Source: Catenulispora pinistramenti (GTDB lineage: Bacteria > Actinomycetota > Actinomycetes > Streptomycetales > Catenulisporaceae). Taken from it: 39,301 nt of DNA. Position numbers and translations under genes: made by a program. Numbering within the stretch: the stretch's first letter is position 1; every line of letters begins with the position of its first letter. A model generated the notes under the pieces. The model saw only the letters and a program-made list of their open reading frames with translations, was not told where the DNA came from and did no database searches. The DNA is taken from positions 1-39,301 of the forward strand of contig NZ_JAAFYZ010000084.1 in assembly GCF_018274385.1 (NCBI RefSeq), given 5' to 3'. Of this stretch, positions 8,550 through 14,560 are shown piece by piece.

Positions 8550-9755
8550 ATGGCGATAGTGCGTTCGGCGTCCTCTGGACGTCGATACGGGTCCCTCGTG
8601 GCGCGCCTGGCCGCCGTGGTCACCAGCCTGGCGCTGATGGCGGGTTGCTCCTCCGGGGCGGGATCGGCTGCCGCCGGGGCCTTCGTCGCGCCGCCGGTGC
8701 CGATGGCCGAGCCGGGCTCGGCCTCCGAGGGCGACCTGTACATGGTGGTGTGGGACGGCTACGCCGAGAACCAGTGGATCGTGCCGTTCCAGCAGCAGAC
8801 CAACTGCCAGGTGCACGCCGACACCGCCGGCAGTTCCGACGAGATGGTCGCGGACGTCAAGTCCGGACGCTACGACGTGGTCTCCGCCTCGGGGGACGCC
8901 AGCCTGCGGATGATAGCCAGCGGGGACGTCGCCCCCGTCGACGTCTCCAAGGTCCCCAACTACGCGCAGATCTACCCGGGCCTGAAAGACCGGCCCTGGA
9001 ACTCGGTGAACGGCGTGCCCTACGGGATCCCCCAGGGCCGCGGCGCGAACGTCCTGATCTACAACAAGAACAAGATGGCGCCGCCGACCTCGCTGGGCGC
9101 GGTGTTCAACCCCGACCCCTCGGCGGCCGGGCACGTGTCGGTCTACGACTCACCGATCACCATCGCCGACGCCGCGCTGTACCTGATGAGCAGCCAGTCG
9201 GCGCTGGGTATCAAGAACCCTTACGAGCTGGACAAGAACCAGTTCGACGCGGTCGTCGCGCTGCTGACCAAGCAGCGCGCCGCGGTCGGTGACTACTGGC
9301 CCGACACCGCCGACCAGGAGGCCGCCTTCGCCAAGGGCGCGGACACCATCGGCACCGGCTGGCAGGTGGTCGTCAACAGTCTGCAGAACGCCGGACACGG
9401 GGAGATCGCCACCGCCACGCCGACCGAGGGCAGCACCGGGTGGTCCGACACCTGGATGGTGAGCGCCACGGCGAAGGATCTGACCTGCACCTATGAGTGG
9501 CTGAACTACATCTCCTCGCCGACCGTCAACGCGCAGGTGGCCCAGTGGGCCGGGGAGGCCCCGGCGAACTCGCAGGCCTGCGCCAAGACCACCGACCCCA
9601 AGTTCTGCGCCGCCTACCACGCCGACGACGAGTCCTACTGGAAGAACATCTGGTTCTGGACCACGCCCAGCGCGCGCTGTGGGGACGGAAGCGACCGTAC
9701 GTGCGTGCCCTACTCGCAGTGGGTGGCGGCCTGGAACCGGATCAAACACCAATGA
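8550..9755 (+). CDS. PotD-like extracellular solute-binding lipoprotein
   Basis: The product (401 residues) is an ABC-type solute-binding protein anchored as a lipoprotein. It has a basic N-terminus, a hydrophobic stretch (about 18-30) and the lipobox LMAGC with the lipidated Cys at 33. The mature part resembles spermidine/putrescine-binding proteins: LYMVVWDGYAENQWIVPFQQ at the start, VPYGIPQGRGANVLIYN in the first lobe, and a C-terminal EWLNYISSPTVNAQVAQWAG followed by APANSQA, typical of PotD. No permease or ATPase gene is near. Its TGA (9753-9755) overlaps an in-frame ATG of cvnA as ATGA. The context suggests ligand sensing for the conservon rather than transport; that is inference. The ligand may be a polyamine or another small cation, which is unproven. 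Confidence 0.85.
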   Translation: MAIVRSASSGRRYGSLVARLAAVVTSLALMAGCSSGAGSAAAGAFVAPPVPMAEPGSASEGDLYMVVWDGYAENQWIVPFQQQTNCQVHADTAGSSDEMVADVKSGRYDVVSASGDASLRMIASGDVAPVDVSKVPNYAQIYPGLKDRPWNSVNGVPYGIPQGRGANVLIYNKNKMAPPTSLGAVFNPDPSAAGHVSVYDSPITIADAALYLMSSQSALGIKNPYELDKNQFDAVVALLTKQRAAVGDYWPDTADQEAAFAKGADTIGTGWQVVVNSLQNAGHGEIATATPTEGSTGWSDTWMVSATAKDLTCTYEWLNYISSPTVNAQVAQWAGEAPANSQACAKTTDPKFCAAYHADDESYWKNIWFWTTPSARCGDGSDRTCVPYSQWVAAWNRIKHQ

Positions 9756-9784
9756 CCGCACGGGGCAAGGGAGGCGGTGCGGAC

Positions 9785-12700
9785 ATGACGCAGAGCTCGG
9801 GCGCCGACGTCGCCAACACCACCAAGACCGGGATCCGCGCCCGGCTGCCGTTCCGGCGCCGCATGGACCTGCTGGTCATCCTGCCCACCGTGGCCATGGC
9901 CGCGCTGATGACCCCGGTCGCGGTCCACGAGGTGGACGTGGCCGGCCAGTGGAACTCGGCGGCCGACTTCCTGTCCTCGTCCAAGTCCGTCAGCCAGCTG
10001 ATCCAGGACCTGTCGGTGGAGCGCGACAAGGCCCAGGCGGCGATGAGCGGCGACCCGGACAAGGTGGCGCAGTACACGGCCGCCATCGGCACCACCGACT
10101 CCCAGGTCCAGCAGGTCACCTCGGACTACGGCAGCAGCGCCACGCCGACCCTGACCGCCGCCCTGGCCGCCGTCTCCGACCTGAGCTACGTGCGCGAACT
10201 GCCGGCCACCGAGGGCATGTCGCAGAACTATGTGCTGCAGGCCCACGTCCAACAGTTGGTCGACACCGTGTACGGGGCCATCGACTCGCAGATGGTCTCG
10301 GCGCTGGACTTCGGCGGGCACGCGGCCGACGGCGGTCCGGCCGCCTCGCTGGAGTCCGAGCTGTCCGCGCTGTACTCCGGCGACATGGCCGAGAGCCAGC
10401 GCGAGGCCTCGCTCACCGCCTTCGCCTCCGGCCCCACCGAGTTCAACGCCGGTGAGGAGTACGCCACCGCGCTGCGCTGGGACCAGGTCGCGCAGGTGCA
10501 GTTCGGGCTGGTGCAGCAGTCCACCGCGGCCTCGGACCGCAACGCCATCGCCGACCTGCTCCGCTCGGCGCAGGCCGAGGTCTTCCGCGGCTACCAGGAC
10601 CGCGCCGAGGCCATGTACGGCCTGGCCTTCGACCCGATCCGCGGGGTCAGCGGCGCCACCCAGGTCAACCCGCAGACCATCCAGACCCTGAGCGACCGCA
10701 CGTCGCTGACCGCGGCCTTCGAGACCGCGTCCAACTCCCGGGCCGGGGCCGAGGCCCAGATCACCGACCGGATCATCGGCCTGGCCCGGGACAACGCCCA
10801 GCAGGCCGAGCTCACCGTGGCGCTGCTGATCGGCATCGGGGTGCTGGCCGCCGGCGGGCTGATGGTGCTGTCCGGACTGATCCGCAGATCCGTGGTGCGG
10901 CCGGTGCTGGCGCTGACCCGGGCCGCCACCCGCGTCGCCCGCGCCGCCGCGGCCGATCTGGAACGGGTCACCGACGAGGACCTCGGCGAGCGCGGTGAGC
11001 TGCCGGAGTTCGAGGCCATCCCGGTGCCGACCGACGACGAGCTCGGCGACCTGGCGCTGGCGTTCAACAAGGTGCAGGAGACCGCGCTGCTGATGCTGGA
11101 GCGGCAGGTCACCATCCGGCGCAACACCGCGGAGATGTTCGGCAACGTCGGGCACCGGATCCACAACCTCACCGGACGCCAGCTGTCGATCATCGACCAG
11201 GTGGAGCGGACCGAGACCGATCCGACGCTGCTGGACCGGCTCTACCGCATCGACCACCTCGCGGTGCGCTTGCAGCGCGGTGCCGACAGCCTGATCCTGC
11301 TCTCCGGCGAGCGCGAGGCCAACATCTCCGGCGCGCCGATGCGGCTCACCGACGTGGTGCGCTCGGCCGTCGGCCGCGTCGAGGGCTACCAGCGGGTGGT
11401 GCTGATCGCCGAGGACGACGCCATGGTCGCGCCCTCGGCGGTCGGCGACCTGACGCTGATGGTCGCCGAACTCGTGGAGAACGCGGTGTCGTTCTCCCCG
11501 GCCAGCCAGCGGGTGGAGATCGCGGTCGGGCTGTCGGCGCGCGGGTTCGTGATCGAGATCGTGGACCGCGGGATGGGCATGTCGCCGGAGCAGATGGCGC
11601 AGGAGAACGCGCGCCTGGTGCGCCGCGAGCGCCTGGACCTGGCGCCGACCCGGGTACTGGGCCTGTTCGTGGTGGGCCGGCTGTCGGTGCGGACCGGTGC
11701 GGCCGTGGAACTGTCGGCGACGGCAGGCGGCGGGACCACGGCGCGGGTGTACGTGCCCGGATTCCTGCTGGCCGGGCCGGTGGCCGAGACGGCCGGGACG
11801 GCTGGGACGCGGGCCCCGCGCGGAGACGCCGCCGAGGCCGCCGCGACGGGGACGCCGGGTGCGGCCGCCGCGCCGGCCGGCAACGGGGTGCCGACGTTGC
11901 CCTCCGGCCCGATGCTGCCCTCCAGCCCAGCCCAGGCGCATGCTCAGGCGCTGGAGACGCGCGGGCGGCCGCCGCTGACGCCGGCGCAGCCGATGCACGT
12001 CCCGGAGCCTTCGCCGGCTGCGGAGTCGGCGCCCGCTGGATTCGGCTCCGGCGCCGGGTTCGGTCCTGGTTCTGGTTCGGGTTCGGCCCCCGCGCTGCCG
12101 CCGGGGGCTGAGGGTCTGCCTCGGCGGGTGCCCGGGGCGTCGCAGCCGGGGGAGGCGTTCAGCCTGCCGACACCGAATACACCGTTCGACGGGTACGCCG
12201 CCGGTCCGGCCGCTGCCGGGCAGGCCGGTGCGCACGCCGCCCCGTATCCGGCGGCTGATCCGGCCGGGGTGAACCCGGCTGGGGTGAACCCGGCCGGGGC
12301 GAACGCCGCCGGAACCGGTGGCGCATCCGGGTCGCCGTCGTTCCAGACCTTTGACCGGGCTGCGGCTGACGCGCAGTCCGGCCCGCCTTCCTACCAACCG
12401 CGACCGTCCCAGCCGCCGACCGCCGGACCGGAGAACTCCTCGCTCCAGGTGTCCGGCTTCGACGCGCTCGGCCAGCCGGGGGCGACCGACGCCCCGGGCG
12501 GCCGCTACTCGCTCGGCCCGCTGGCGCCGGTGCCGCCCGAAGGACCCGGCCGGCGGCGCGCGCTGTCCGGCGGCGACGTCCAGCAGCAGCCGCATCAGCC
12601 GGTGCCCGAGCCGCGCCGGGAGACCGAGATGCTGCCGGTGCGCCGGCCGCGGGCGGTGCCGCCGCCATCGAATTCCCAGGCGACGGCTTCTCCCCAGGCG

Positions 12701-13051
12701 GCGGCTCCCCAGGCGGCGACCCCACCGGCCGCCGCGGCCTCCGCGTCCCCGGTCGCCGCGCCCCCGCCCAGCGCCACCGCCCCGCAGCCTTCCGACGGAG
12801 CCCTGCCCCGCCGAGTCCGCAAGACGCCCTCGCACCCGGACTGGCCGACCAGCCAGATCTCCGCGGTGACCGAGGGGCCGGCCCAGCAGCAGGACGCGCG
12901 GGCCGTGCGGGACGCGTTGCAGGAGTTCGAGGCGGGAGTGGAACGAGCGAACCGCGACAGCGCCGAACAGACGACGCAGCTGCCGACCCGCCGGCAGGCG
13001 GCCCGCCACGCGGGCCCGGCCACGCCGCAGCGGGACGGGGAAGACCAATAG
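9785..13051 (+). CDS. cvnA: Conservon sensor histidine kinase-like protein CvnA
   Basis: The product (1088 residues) is the membrane sensor of a conservon, a Streptomyces-type system in which CvnA works with CvnB, C and D at the membrane. Layout: transmembrane helix at about 27-48; an extracellular nitrate/nitrite-sensing-type helical domain (NIT; LIQDLSVERDKAQAAMSG near the start); a second transmembrane helix (about 341-363); a HAMP linker; a DHp-like segment with VGHRIHNL (His-457 is the likely equivalent of the phospho-acceptor); and an HATPase domain with ELVENAV (Asn-566) and DRGMGMS (about 594-600). A Pro/Ala/Gly-rich, probably disordered tail of about 425 residues follows. I chose ATG 9785 because AGGGAGG lies 10 nt upstream; ATG 9752 overlaps the lipoprotein stop and would add 11 residues. 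Confidence 0.88.
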   Translation: MTQSSGADVANTTKTGIRARLPFRRRMDLLVILPTVAMAALMTPVAVHEVDVAGQWNSAADFLSSSKSVSQLIQDLSVERDKAQAAMSGDPDKVAQYTAAIGTTDSQVQQVTSDYGSSATPTLTAALAAVSDLSYVRELPATEGMSQNYVLQAHVQQLVDTVYGAIDSQMVSALDFGGHAADGGPAASLESELSALYSGDMAESQREASLTAFASGPTEFNAGEEYATALRWDQVAQVQFGLVQQSTAASDRNAIADLLRSAQAEVFRGYQDRAEAMYGLAFDPIRGVSGATQVNPQTIQTLSDRTSLTAAFETASNSRAGAEAQITDRIIGLARDNAQQAELTVALLIGIGVLAAGGLMVLSGLIRRSVVRPVLALTRAATRVARAAAADLERVTDEDLGERGELPEFEAIPVPTDDELGDLALAFNKVQETALLMLERQVTIRRNTAEMFGNVGHRIHNLTGRQLSIIDQVERTETDPTLLDRLYRIDHLAVRLQRGADSLILLSGEREANISGAPMRLTDVVRSAVGRVEGYQRVVLIAEDDAMVAPSAVGDLTLMVAELVENAVSFSPASQRVEIAVGLSARGFVIEIVDRGMGMSPEQMAQENARLVRRERLDLAPTRVLGLFVVGRLSVRTGAAVELSATAGGGTTARVYVPGFLLAGPVAETAGTAGTRAPRGDAAEAAATGTPGAAAAPAGNGVPTLPSGPMLPSSPAQAHAQALETRGRPPLTPAQPMHVPEPSPAAESAPAGFGSGAGFGPGSGSGSAPALPPGAEGLPRRVPGASQPGEAFSLPTPNTPFDGYAAGPAAAGQAGAHAAPYPAADPAGVNPAGVNPAGANAAGTGGASGSPSFQTFDRAAADAQSGPPSYQPRPSQPPTAGPENSSLQVSGFDALGQPGATDAPGGRYSLGPLAPVPPEGPGRRRALSGGDVQQQPHQPVPEPRRETEMLPVRRPRAVPPPSNSQATASPQAAAPQAATPPAAAASASPVAAPPPSATAPQPSDGALPRRVRKTPSHPDWPTSQISAVTEGPAQQQDARAVRDALQEFEAGVERANRDSAEQTTQLPTRRQAARHAGPATPQRDGEDQ

Positions 13052-13063
13052 GAGGACGACACC

Positions 13064-13561
13064 ATGATCGGCTCTAATAGTGCCGCCCCGTGGGAGAGCG
13101 AAGATCAGCGGCTCGCAGCCGACGCCGCGGACTTCACGTGGATGGTCGCCCGGTTCGCCAACGAGACCGCCGGCGTGGTCGACGCCATCGCGGTCTCGTC
13201 CGACGGGCTGTTGATCGCCGTCTCGCGCCCGCAGGACCCGGGGTCCTCCGAGCGGCTGGCCGCCGTGGTCTCCGGGATGACTTCCCTGGCCGCCGGCGCC
13301 GGCGGCAACTACGGCCTGGGCGCGCTGAACAAGGTCATCATCGACATGGAGGGCGGCTACCTGCTGATCACCCGGATCGGCAGCGGCGCGGTGCTCGGCG
13401 CGGTCACCACGGCCGACGCCAAGCTGGCCAACGTCGCCTACGAGATGACGCTGTTCGCCAACCGGGTCGGCGCGGTGCTGAGCCCGGCGCTGATCATCGA
13501 GCTGAAGAACACCGTCGGCATGGGCGTCCCCGCACGCAGGCCAGGTGGTGGGCAGGGGTGA
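13064..13561 (+). CDS. cvnB: Roadblock/LC7-domain protein CvnB
   Basis: The product (165 residues) is the roadblock/LC7 member of the conservon, a fold related to MglB that regulates small GTPases. The sequence has the usual pattern: FTWMVARFANETAGVVDAIAVSSDG, then SGMTSLAAGAGGNYGLGALNKVIIDMEGGYLLITRIG, then VLGAVTTADAKLANVAYEM. These are the alternating strands and helices of the fold. GGAGG (13051-13055) lies 8 nt before the ATG and overlaps the cvnA stop. Its own stop overlaps the GTG start of cvnC (GTGA), so the pair are translationally coupled. In known conservons CvnB acts between the sensor and the GTPase CvnD. Confidence 0.93.
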   Translation: MIGSNSAAPWESEDQRLAADAADFTWMVARFANETAGVVDAIAVSSDGLLIAVSRPQDPGSSERLAAVVSGMTSLAAGAGGNYGLGALNKVIIDMEGGYLLITRIGSGAVLGAVTTADAKLANVAYEMTLFANRVGAVLSPALIIELKNTVGMGVPARRPGGGQG

Positions 13562-13983
13562 CCGAACCGGGCCGGGCGGGCCCCGCCGAGCAGGGCCGCC
13601 GCGACGCCGTCGAGCAGGTCTCGGCGGTGCGTCCGTTCCTGCTCACCGAGGGCCGGGTGGTCGACGGCGAACAGGCGCTGCCGATGGAGACCCAGCTGGT
13701 CGCCACCCCCGAGGCGCTGGCCCAGCTGGAGCAGCCGCACCTGGCCTTCGAACGCCGCGCCATCATCGAGACCTGCCGCGTCCCGGTCTCCCTGGCCGAG
13801 CTGGCCGCCCGCCTGAAGCTGCACTTGAACGTGGTCCGCGTCCTGGTGGGCGACCTGCACACACGACAGCTGCTGACCGTCCACGTCCCCCGCGCGGCCG
13901 GCGGCTCGGATCTGGACATCTTGAGAAGGGTGATCGATGGCCTCCGCGCAATACACACGTCAGGCGGGCCCGGCCATGACTGA
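13558..13983 (+). CDS. cvnC: DUF742 protein CvnC
   Basis: The product (141 residues) is the DUF742 component of the conservon. The start GTG at 13558 overlaps the cvnB stop (GTGA), giving VTEPGRAGPAEQ; a longer reading from 13090 in the same frame would run inside cvnB and is rejected. Recognisable parts are VRPFLLTEGRV, METQLVAT and FERRAIIETCRVPVSLAELAARLKLHLNVVRVLVGDL. The last is a winged helix-like segment ending in LLTVHVP, typical of DUF742. The C-terminus overlaps cvnD by 47 nt. Its biochemical role within conservons is not well known; it is thought to bind the partner proteins. Confidence 0.9.
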   Translation: MTEPGRAGPAEQGRRDAVEQVSAVRPFLLTEGRVVDGEQALPMETQLVATPEALAQLEQPHLAFERRAIIETCRVPVSLAELAARLKLHLNVVRVLVGDLHTRQLLTVHVPRAAGGSDLDILRRVIDGLRAIHTSGGPGHD

Positions 13984-14560
13984 AGCCACCCCCACGGCGA
14001 CGGCCGTCCGGCCGCCGCAGCCGGTGAAGATGGTGATCTCCGGCGGCTTCGGCGTGGGCAAGACCACCGCCATCGGGGCGGTCAGCGAGATCGAGCCGCT
14101 CACCACCGAGGCCGCCATCACCGAGGTGGCGGCGGGCGTGGACGACACCAGCCTGACCCCGCGCAAGACCACCACCACGGTCGCGATGGACTTCGGCTGC
14201 CTGACCCTGGACCCCACGCTGAAGCTGTACATCTTCGGCACCCCGGGCCAGGACCGCTTCGGCTTCATGTGGAAGGACGTCACGGCCGGCGCCCTCGGCG
14301 CGCTGGTGGTCGTCGACTCCCGGCGCCTGGACGAGTGTTTCCCGGCGGTGGACTACTTCGAGCGCGAGGGGACCCCGTTCGCGATAGCGGTGAACGCCTT
14401 CGACGGGGTGCTCTCGCACTCGCTGCCCGCGGTGCGGTCGGCGCTGGACGTGGCACCGGAGGTGCCGGTGGTGGCATTCGACGCCCGCAGCGCGGATTCG
14501 GTGCGGGAATCGCTGATTGTCGTGCTCGAACATGCCTTGATGCGGGCCCGGGGGTATTAG
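13937..14560 (+). CDS. cvnD: Conservon small GTPase CvnD
   Basis: The product (207 residues) is a Ras-like small GTPase, the output element of conservons. The P-loop GGFGVGKTT lies at about residues 36-44, followed by TTTVAMDFG (switch I region), FGTPGQDRFGFMW (the DxxG-like Switch II, here TPGQD) and VNAFDGV, where NxxD-type specificity is expected. The ATG at 13937 is supported by AGAAGGG 6 nt upstream; ATG 13976 is a second candidate, overlapping the cvnC stop. The 47-nt overlap with cvnC indicates coupled translation. Several Streptomyces conservons carry a fifth gene for a cytochrome P450. None follows here; the next gene is rtcB, 93 nt downstream. Confidence 0.92.
   Translation: MASAQYTRQAGPAMTEATPTATAVRPPQPVKMVISGGFGVGKTTAIGAVSEIEPLTTEAAITEVAAGVDDTSLTPRKTTTTVAMDFGCLTLDPTLKLYIFGTPGQDRFGFMWKDVTAGALGALVVVDSRRLDECFPAVDYFEREGTPFAIAVNAFDGVLSHSLPAVRSALDVAPEVPVVAFDARSADSVRESLIVVLEHALMRARGY

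Follow-up and report, generated by a model that had tools for sequence, protein, structure and literature searches.

Conservons, or actinobacterial G protein systems, are described as operons in which the sensor kinase CvnA, in some cases with a NIT-fold ectodomain, is encoded ahead of CvnB, CvnC, and CvnD (PMC13343842, PMC8510531), and a C-terminal LPxR motif has been described for the kinases (PMC4316618). The accessory proteins CvnE, a cytochrome P450, and CvnF, a GAF protein, are encoded after cvnD, and in a survey of 485 genomes, which scored accessories by the CvnE and CvnF orthogroups, they occurred overwhelmingly with CvnA proteins without a NIT domain (PMC13343842). In the kinase systems TorT-TorS, XylFII-LytS, and LuxP-LuxQ (PMC6321045), a periplasmic-type binding protein is paired with a kinase ectodomain. 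The actinobacterial operon GlnH-GlnX-PknG of Corynebacterium and Mycobacterium includes a solute-binding protein (SBP) lipoprotein as the proposed input of a helical membrane receptor, and the GlnH-GlnX contact is stated there as not yet demonstrated (PMC9769921). In addition, lipoproteins are encoded with sensor kinases, as their proposed modulators, in CseA-CseC and AfsQ3-AfsQ2 of Streptomyces (PMC9739842). Here, a 39,301-nucleotide (nt) stretch of the Catenulispora pinistramenti genome (contig NZ_JAAFYZ010000084.1, positions 1 to 39,301; contig C655 of the 11.46-Mb genome), hereafter the window, was analyzed; it contains a conservon whose cvnA gene is preceded by a gene for a YdcS/PotD-like solute-binding lipoprotein.

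The locus shares with the described conservons the order and domains of CvnA to CvnD, a predicted NIT-fold ectodomain, and C-terminal LPxR sequences, and it differs from them in the extra lipoprotein gene upstream of cvnA. It fits the TorT-TorS type of gene arrangement, an SBP gene beside a kinase with a predicted helical ectodomain, but the partners of its kinase form a roadblock/GTPase system, its SBP family and NIT domain are different, and its pairing is known from the genes. In GlnH-GlnX-PknG, unlike the window, the receptor GlnX is not a kinase, a Ser/Thr kinase acts downstream, and GlnH belongs to SBP_bac_3 (PMC9769921). CseA-CseC and AfsQ3-AfsQ2 differ in having conventional two-component outputs and lipoproteins that are not termed SBPs (PMC9739842).

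All of the features of the operon lie on the forward strand. The lipoprotein gene (401 aa; positions 8550 to 9755, with an ATG start and a TGA stop at 9753 to 9755) encodes a signal peptide up to the lipobox cysteine, residue 33, at 8550 to 8648, and its product matches SBP_bac_8 in Pfam (E = 3.8e-18). The cvnA gene (1,099 aa; 9752 to 13051, with ATG at 9752 and TAG at 13049 to 13051) encodes a kinase with matches to HATPase_c (6.3e-11) and HAMP (1.2e-7) and with four C-terminal LPxR sequences, one of which is encoded at 12803 to 12814. It is followed by cvnB for a roadblock/LC7 protein (13064 to 13561; Robl_LC7, 9.3e-16), cvnC (13558 to 13979, GTG start at 13558; DUF742, 5.4e-23), and cvnD (13937 to 14560), whose MglA/Ras-like GTPase product matches ATP_bind_1 (PF03029, 1.7e-22) and is alignable with the CvnDs of the genome's other five conservons. 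With transmembrane (TM) segments, HAMP, and HATPase_c in CvnA, followed in order by Robl_LC7, DUF742, and a small GTPase, the operon is a conservon. The first-pass annotation had placed the PotD-like lipoprotein and the conservon in one operon, with overlapping or closely spaced starts and no permease or ATPase gene in the window, and these points were all confirmed: the successive junctions are a 4-nt ATGA overlap, a 12-nt gap, a 4-nt GTGA overlap (cvnB/cvnC), and a 43-nt overlap (cvnC/cvnD), and a tblastn search of the window at 1e-3 with a panel containing ABC (ATP-binding cassette) permeases and ATPases returned none. Its word "fused" holds for the operon, although the lipoprotein and CvnA are separate proteins. 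Of the two cvnA starts that it had offered, the one in the ATGA at 9752 is kept in all 10 loci of the genus, and the second, in frame at 9785, has GGAGG upstream; length differences between the two starts are multiples of three across the genus loci. A scan of the operon for promoters and terminators found 0 and 0, no better than in shuffled sequences.

Orthologues of the lipoprotein are present in all 10 genomes of the genus, the 9 others being 65 to 96% identical to that of the window, and in every one the gene immediately precedes cvnA with the ATGA overlap. Outside the genus but within the family, four genomes were searched; three gave only weak matches (26 to 31%) and the fourth gave none. 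In the eight loci that span the stretch from a helicase gene to the SBP gene, an AGCS symporter gene lies between the two in three (the window, L054, and L058) and is missing from five (L055, L056, L059, L060, and L061), and linkage of this alanine symporter was accordingly rejected. The neighborhood is thus fluid while the SBP-cvnA junction is fixed, which indicates that the linkage goes beyond chance. Between the window and its nine genus-mates, the mature SBP and the CvnA ectodomain have similar ranges of identity (65 to 96% and 65 to 95%), and the kinase portion is 95 to 100% identical.

The best NCBIfam model for the lipoprotein is YdcS (2.2e-78, 264 bits, under the model's cutoff of 725), far ahead of PotD (4.9e-13) and PotF (3.3e-12), so that "YdcS-like" is more precise than the earlier "polyamine-type"; the SBP_bac_8 and YdcS/PotD assignment stands, and the polyamine ligand was a guess. 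Its best solved relative is 6nlp (4.5e-64), with PotD/PotF-type structures from 2.4e-11. A lipobox (LMAGC, LVAGC, or LLAAC) is present in 10 of 10 orthologues. Like the YdcSTUV and PotABCD importers, the protein has the SBP_bac_8 domain, the lipoprotein signal, and the aromatic residues and acid of the putative ligand site; it differs from them in that no cognate permease and ATPase genes lie alongside. Of 18 transporter-linked relatives, 17 or more agree at 84 near-invariant positions, and the window SBP retains 76 of these; across the genus, 72 persist in 9 or all 10 of the SBPs, 9 are mixed, and 3 (window positions 91, 102, and 182) are lost in all 10. W68, Y71, W271, W298, and D300 align to residues that we take to be ligand contacts in PotD, and all of them except W271 were scored as invariant in the 10 genus SBPs. 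A cationic amine is a plausible ligand.

In a phylum sample of 396 genomes, relatives of the SBP at E 1e-20 were found in 48, the window's own included. Among 21 loci examined from the other 47 genomes, 18 have an ATPase, the SBP, and two permeases in the YdcT-S-U-V order, and in L074 an ATPase gene and the SBP gene are followed directly by the contig end. In two mycobacterium-like genomes (L068:8269-9477 and L069:8059-9429), the YdcS-like SBP is an orphan among unrelated neighbors, with no transporter or conservon gene seen by eye in the stretch. No conservon gene adjoins the SBP in any of the 21 loci, in the stretches examined. A family specific to conservons was therefore rejected, and the linkage to cvnA, whose absence in relatives would have counted against the first-pass annotation, holds throughout the genus and in none of the 21 loci outside it. 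The best YdcV match within the genus is 35 to 36% identical (10 of 10 genomes), and the permease matches in full operons are 42 to 59% identical (L066, the query, and L065, nearly identical to it, excluded). The PotC-like locus to which the genus match belongs, examined in two genomes, contains an ATPase gene, PotB-like genes, and its own SBP_bac_8 protein. With its relatives in full ABC operons and only this weak match in the genus, the lipoprotein looks like a YdcS-type transport SBP that was parted from its transporter.

The ectodomain of CvnA (residues 59 to 353, encoded at 9926 to 10810) is flanked by two predicted TM segments, with 295 residues between them. Its fold, predicted from 39 sequences (pLDDT 86, pTM 0.76), superimposes on the NIT domain of NasR with a Z score of 25.0 (3.4 Å over 268 residues); NasR is also its top Foldseek match (E = 0.03), and a profile of the 39 relatives matches NasR at 1.6e-26. 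The window ectodomain sequence alone has no Pfam NIT match up to E 1, and Pfam recognizes NIT in the genome's three other sensor-type CvnA proteins. The CvnA ectodomain is therefore modeled as a NasR-type NIT fold, in agreement with the extracellular helical domain proposed at first pass.

The survey of conservon loci for adjacent SBPs that had been suggested for this locus revealed linkage to several SBP families. The C. pinistramenti genome has six roadblock loci, and all four of its conservons with a CvnA ectodomain flank an SBP: the YdcS-like SBP in the window, a divergently oriented NMT1-type SBP in L096, and LivK after cvnD in L098 and L099. In L098 no importer gene lies alongside, and an ABC exporter-like pair, identified via its scanned counterpart in L185, is on the far side of cvnA; in L099 Liv-like genes for permease and ATPase components come after the LivK gene. 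The conservons of these two loci (L098:3067-5404 and L099:4216-6591), in which the LivK-type gene comes right after cvnD, have no DUF742 match. The remaining two conservons flank a P450 (L097) and a GAF-like protein (L100; assigned by eye, with part of a diguanylate cyclase as its nearest solved relative), and they are the published CvnE and CvnF types.

Among relatives of the window CvnD, the best 80 of 573 confirmed loci were analyzed, a sample that leans to close CvnD relatives. The upstream gene of cvnA was obtained in 61 of the 80; of the rest, 14 lacked a cvnA match within reach, 4 (L131, L163, L173, and L180) lacked a usable call, and L153, with a 61-residue call only, was omitted. This gene encodes an SBP in 24 of the 61 loci, of NMT1 type in 14, OpuAC type in 8 (all Streptomyces), and Peripla_BP_4 type in 2; L142, L165, and L146 (NMT1), L101 and L104 (OpuAC), and L105 and L110 (Peripla_BP_4) were scanned individually with Pfam, and the others were typed from the family tally and similarity clusters. 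Genes at the fourth to sixth positions after cvnD served as the control, and 125 of 133 were used; the 8 dropped genes lie beside another conservon (two in L141, one each in L149, L152, and L154, and three in L157), and some are SBPs of the conservon-linked type. A panel search found SBPs in only 2 of the 125 (L148 and L154), both belonging to the NMT1 subfamily that is linked to conservons (Fisher p = 1e-11 for 24 of 61 versus 2 of 125, relatedness ignored); the Pfam tally of the controls covers the 25 commonest of 164 families. SBPs were found in 2 of 56 genes at the second upstream position and in 1 of 68 directly downstream of cvnD, and the excess is thus specific to the position upstream of cvnA. 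In 10 of the 61 loci the upstream gene is a cvnD, belonging to a tandem conservon, and in 8, all from Micromonosporaceae, it encodes by eye an apparently helical membrane protein. This helical membrane-anchored protein (L113:2748-3965, L119:3039-4211, L121:3387-4514, five more Micromonosporaceae loci, and L203) has no Pfam match in the three cases scanned; found in the clade next to that of the window, it may represent a further type of CvnA partner.

Six genomes (C. pinistramenti, G005, G004, G217, G036, and G141) were surveyed locus by locus. Of 29 ectodomain-bearing conservons, 13 have an SBP as immediate neighbor (4/4, 4/4, 1/4, 1/7, 2/5, and 1/5 in the respective genomes), versus 0 of 16 ectodomain-less ones (p = 0.0014, relatedness ignored). 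G206, which was also searched, is outside these counts. The absence of an ectodomain was judged by the position of the kinase profile, and the flanks of the ectodomain-less conservons were searched by phmmer with a panel of five SBP families; Pfam was applied to the flanks of two of these conservons. Four cases are ambiguous as to the ectodomain (L184, the second conservon of L191/L196, L205/L207, and L230), and the panel shows no SBP as their first neighbor. Also unclassed were L229, which has a short CvnA; L100, whose cvnA lies beyond the contig end; and L189, L204, L214, L215, L219, and L231, in which no CvnA was recognized. When the four were counted as ectodomain-bearing and L229 as lacking an ectodomain, the counts were 13 of 33 versus 0 of 17 (p = 0.002, relatedness ignored). 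SBP linkage among sensor-type conservons is thus common, far from universal, and variable by genus.

A similar arrangement occurs in Streptomyces, where a Peripla_BP_4 SBP gene precedes cvnA in the same direction in L210 and L224, the two loci whose flanking genes were examined; no transport gene is present among five flanking genes scanned. In a search of 60 genomes of the order (CvnA orthologues at at least 75% and SBP matches at at least 68%), 16 carry this type of CvnA, and in all 16 the Peripla_BP_4 match lies upstream, ending 55 to 253 nt before the CvnA match. The solved relatives of this SBP are sugar SBPs, among them the binding protein of 5xsj, the complex of LytS with XylFII (PMC6321045). 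In a kinase tree of 91 CvnA rows, built by a quick method with Shimodaira-Hasegawa-like approximate likelihood ratio test (SH-aLRT) support, the partner labels require 14 changes versus 43.5 for shuffled labels (none of 200 shuffles needed so few), a contrast inflated by near-copies. The window falls into a 25-row clade (SH-aLRT 100) with YdcS, OpuAC, Peripla_BP_4, NMT1, and helical partners, and the tree places Peripla_BP_4 partners in two distinct clades. Two rows of the window's clade, L124 and L191, are labeled as having no partner, a label that also covers three rows for which no sequence upstream was available (L131, L163, and L180); in L124, an NMT1-like SBP and an ABC ATPase are found by eye farther upstream.

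Some further features were observed around these conservons. The gene downstream of cvnD in the window encodes RtcB, and no P450 or GAF accessory of the CvnE or CvnF type was found there by Pfam; RtcB and alanine dehydrogenase were rejected as partners and look like ordinary neighbors. The L191/L196 locus of G004 consists of tail-to-tail conservons with a pro-kumamolisin-type gene between them, and one of the two, which lacks an SBP, is the nearest relative of the window conservon outside the genus. In L195:11598-14711, cvnA is separated by an IS4-type transposase gene from divergent ABC ATPase/permease-like genes. A second cvnB-like gene follows cvnD in L146, L159, L160 (together with a second cvnC-like gene), L138, and L164. 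In four Streptomyces loci (L101, L103, L104, and L111), the OpuAC SBP is on one side and permease/ATPase genes (the ATPases by eye) are across the conservon, as if the conservon had been placed inside a transport gene cluster.

The SBPs are best read as exchangeable extracellular inputs of NIT-type conservons, and the lipoprotein of the window is probably an input docked on CvnA. The operon would then be a five-component actinobacterial G protein system, for which we infer docking, ligand dependence, and the direction of signaling. The lipoprotein would capture a small solute on the outer face of the membrane and dock on the NIT-fold ectodomain, and docking or ligand-dependent closure would shift the CvnA helices and alter kinase activity. 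Via CvnB and CvnC, whose homologues have reported GTPase-activating protein (GAP) and guanine nucleotide exchange factor (GEF) roles, respectively, in the Mfp system (PMC13343842), this change would set the GTP state of CvnD. The ligand-loaded lipoprotein proposed at first pass is partly supported, being in keeping with operon membership, the lack of an adjacent transporter, the retained putative ligand-site residues, and the predicted helical fold. More tentatively, NIT-type conservons may as a class be SBP-gated receptors, their ectodomains serving as docking modules into which SBP families (YdcS/PotD, LivK, NMT1, OpuAC, and sugar-type Peripla_BP_4), several without a transporter, were repeatedly plugged, and through which nutrients would act on a Ras-like GTPase switch.

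Several observations weigh against the docked-input reading. Sixteen of the 29 ectodomain conservons (20 of 33 with the ambiguous four) have no immediate SBP neighbor, SBPs are scarce directly downstream of cvnD, and in L191, the sister conservon from the same family and the row closest to the window's outside the genus, a tetrapyrrole methylase gene takes the upstream place of an SBP. The matched divergence of SBP and ectodomain may mean merely that exposed proteins evolve fast. The resemblance of one ectodomain bundle to McpS (Z = 12.8) and to TorS of TorS-TorT complexes (Z = 12.7 over 109 residues) speaks for docking, though with values that unrelated helical bundles also reach, and is suggestive only; a TorS-TorT chain appears in Foldseek at rank 37 with a probability of 0.09. 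In addition, transport genes accompany many of the linked SBPs: a permease gene occupies the second upstream position in 9 of the 14 NMT1 loci, OpuAC SBP and permease/ATPase genes flank Streptomyces conservons, and a Liv-like operon follows one conservon in the window's genome. For these SBPs, control of uptake by the conservon fits equally well. The SBP would then be an output, with the conservon controlling uptake genes in cis and a former transport operon reduced, in this genus, to its SBP. For the window this is unlikely, as an SBP gene upstream of and overlapping cvnA would be coexpressed with its own regulator. Moreover, four SBP types have no importer gene in the flanks examined (the window; LivK in L098; NMT1 in L181 and L192; Peripla_BP_4 in L210 and L224), which leaves little for the conservon to regulate.

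It is quite unlikely that the lipoprotein feeds a permease encoded elsewhere, such as that of the PotABC-like locus on contig C668, and is merely coregulated with the conservon. Retention of the putative ligand-site residues would suit such a role, as would the PotC-like gene in every genome of the genus, with its ATPase and PotB-like genes in two loci. However, the SBP of that locus is distant, being missed by the SBP search and 21% identical to the L066 relative, and it is 90.5% conserved between two genomes versus 78% for the window SBP. The full transporter elsewhere that could have undercut the first-pass annotation has, at the nearest candidate locus, an SBP of its own. Between the window genome and G005, the SBPs without adjacent importer genes are 78% (window), 78% (LivK, L098), and 81% (NMT1, L096) identical, those with importer genes are 89% (LivK, L099) and 90.5% (PotD-like, L094) identical, and the CvnA ectodomains are 79 to 85% identical; with two or three cases a side, this is only a hint that transporter-less SBPs diverge faster than transporter-linked ones. 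A chance neighborhood inherited within one genus, to which the observation of YdcS-like linkage in this genus alone would correspond, is highly improbable, since the coding overlap persists through 35% SBP divergence while a neighboring gene comes and goes and the arrangement is seen again with further SBP families.

In the portions of the conservon literature considered here, CvnE and CvnF are the only accessories named. The available text of PMC13343842 contains no mention of lipoproteins, solute- or substrate-binding proteins, ABC transporters, or periplasmic proteins; lipoproteins and substrate- or solute-binding proteins are likewise unmentioned in that of PMC8510531, as are the terms solute-binding, substrate-binding, and periplasmic in that of PMC4316618. 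No report of an SBP-conservon pairing was found in the part of the open-access literature searched, and novelty in print is unproven. The pairing suggests how conservon sensors may receive signals. If it holds true, it would complement the published rule, with CvnE and CvnF accompanying ectodomain-less CvnA proteins and SBPs accompanying some of those that bear an ectodomain. Should the SBPs act as inputs, the SBP family would allow a guess at the ligand class for many conservons, which ordinary binding experiments could check, and a bacterial path from nutrient sensing to Ras-like GTPases would open up to study.

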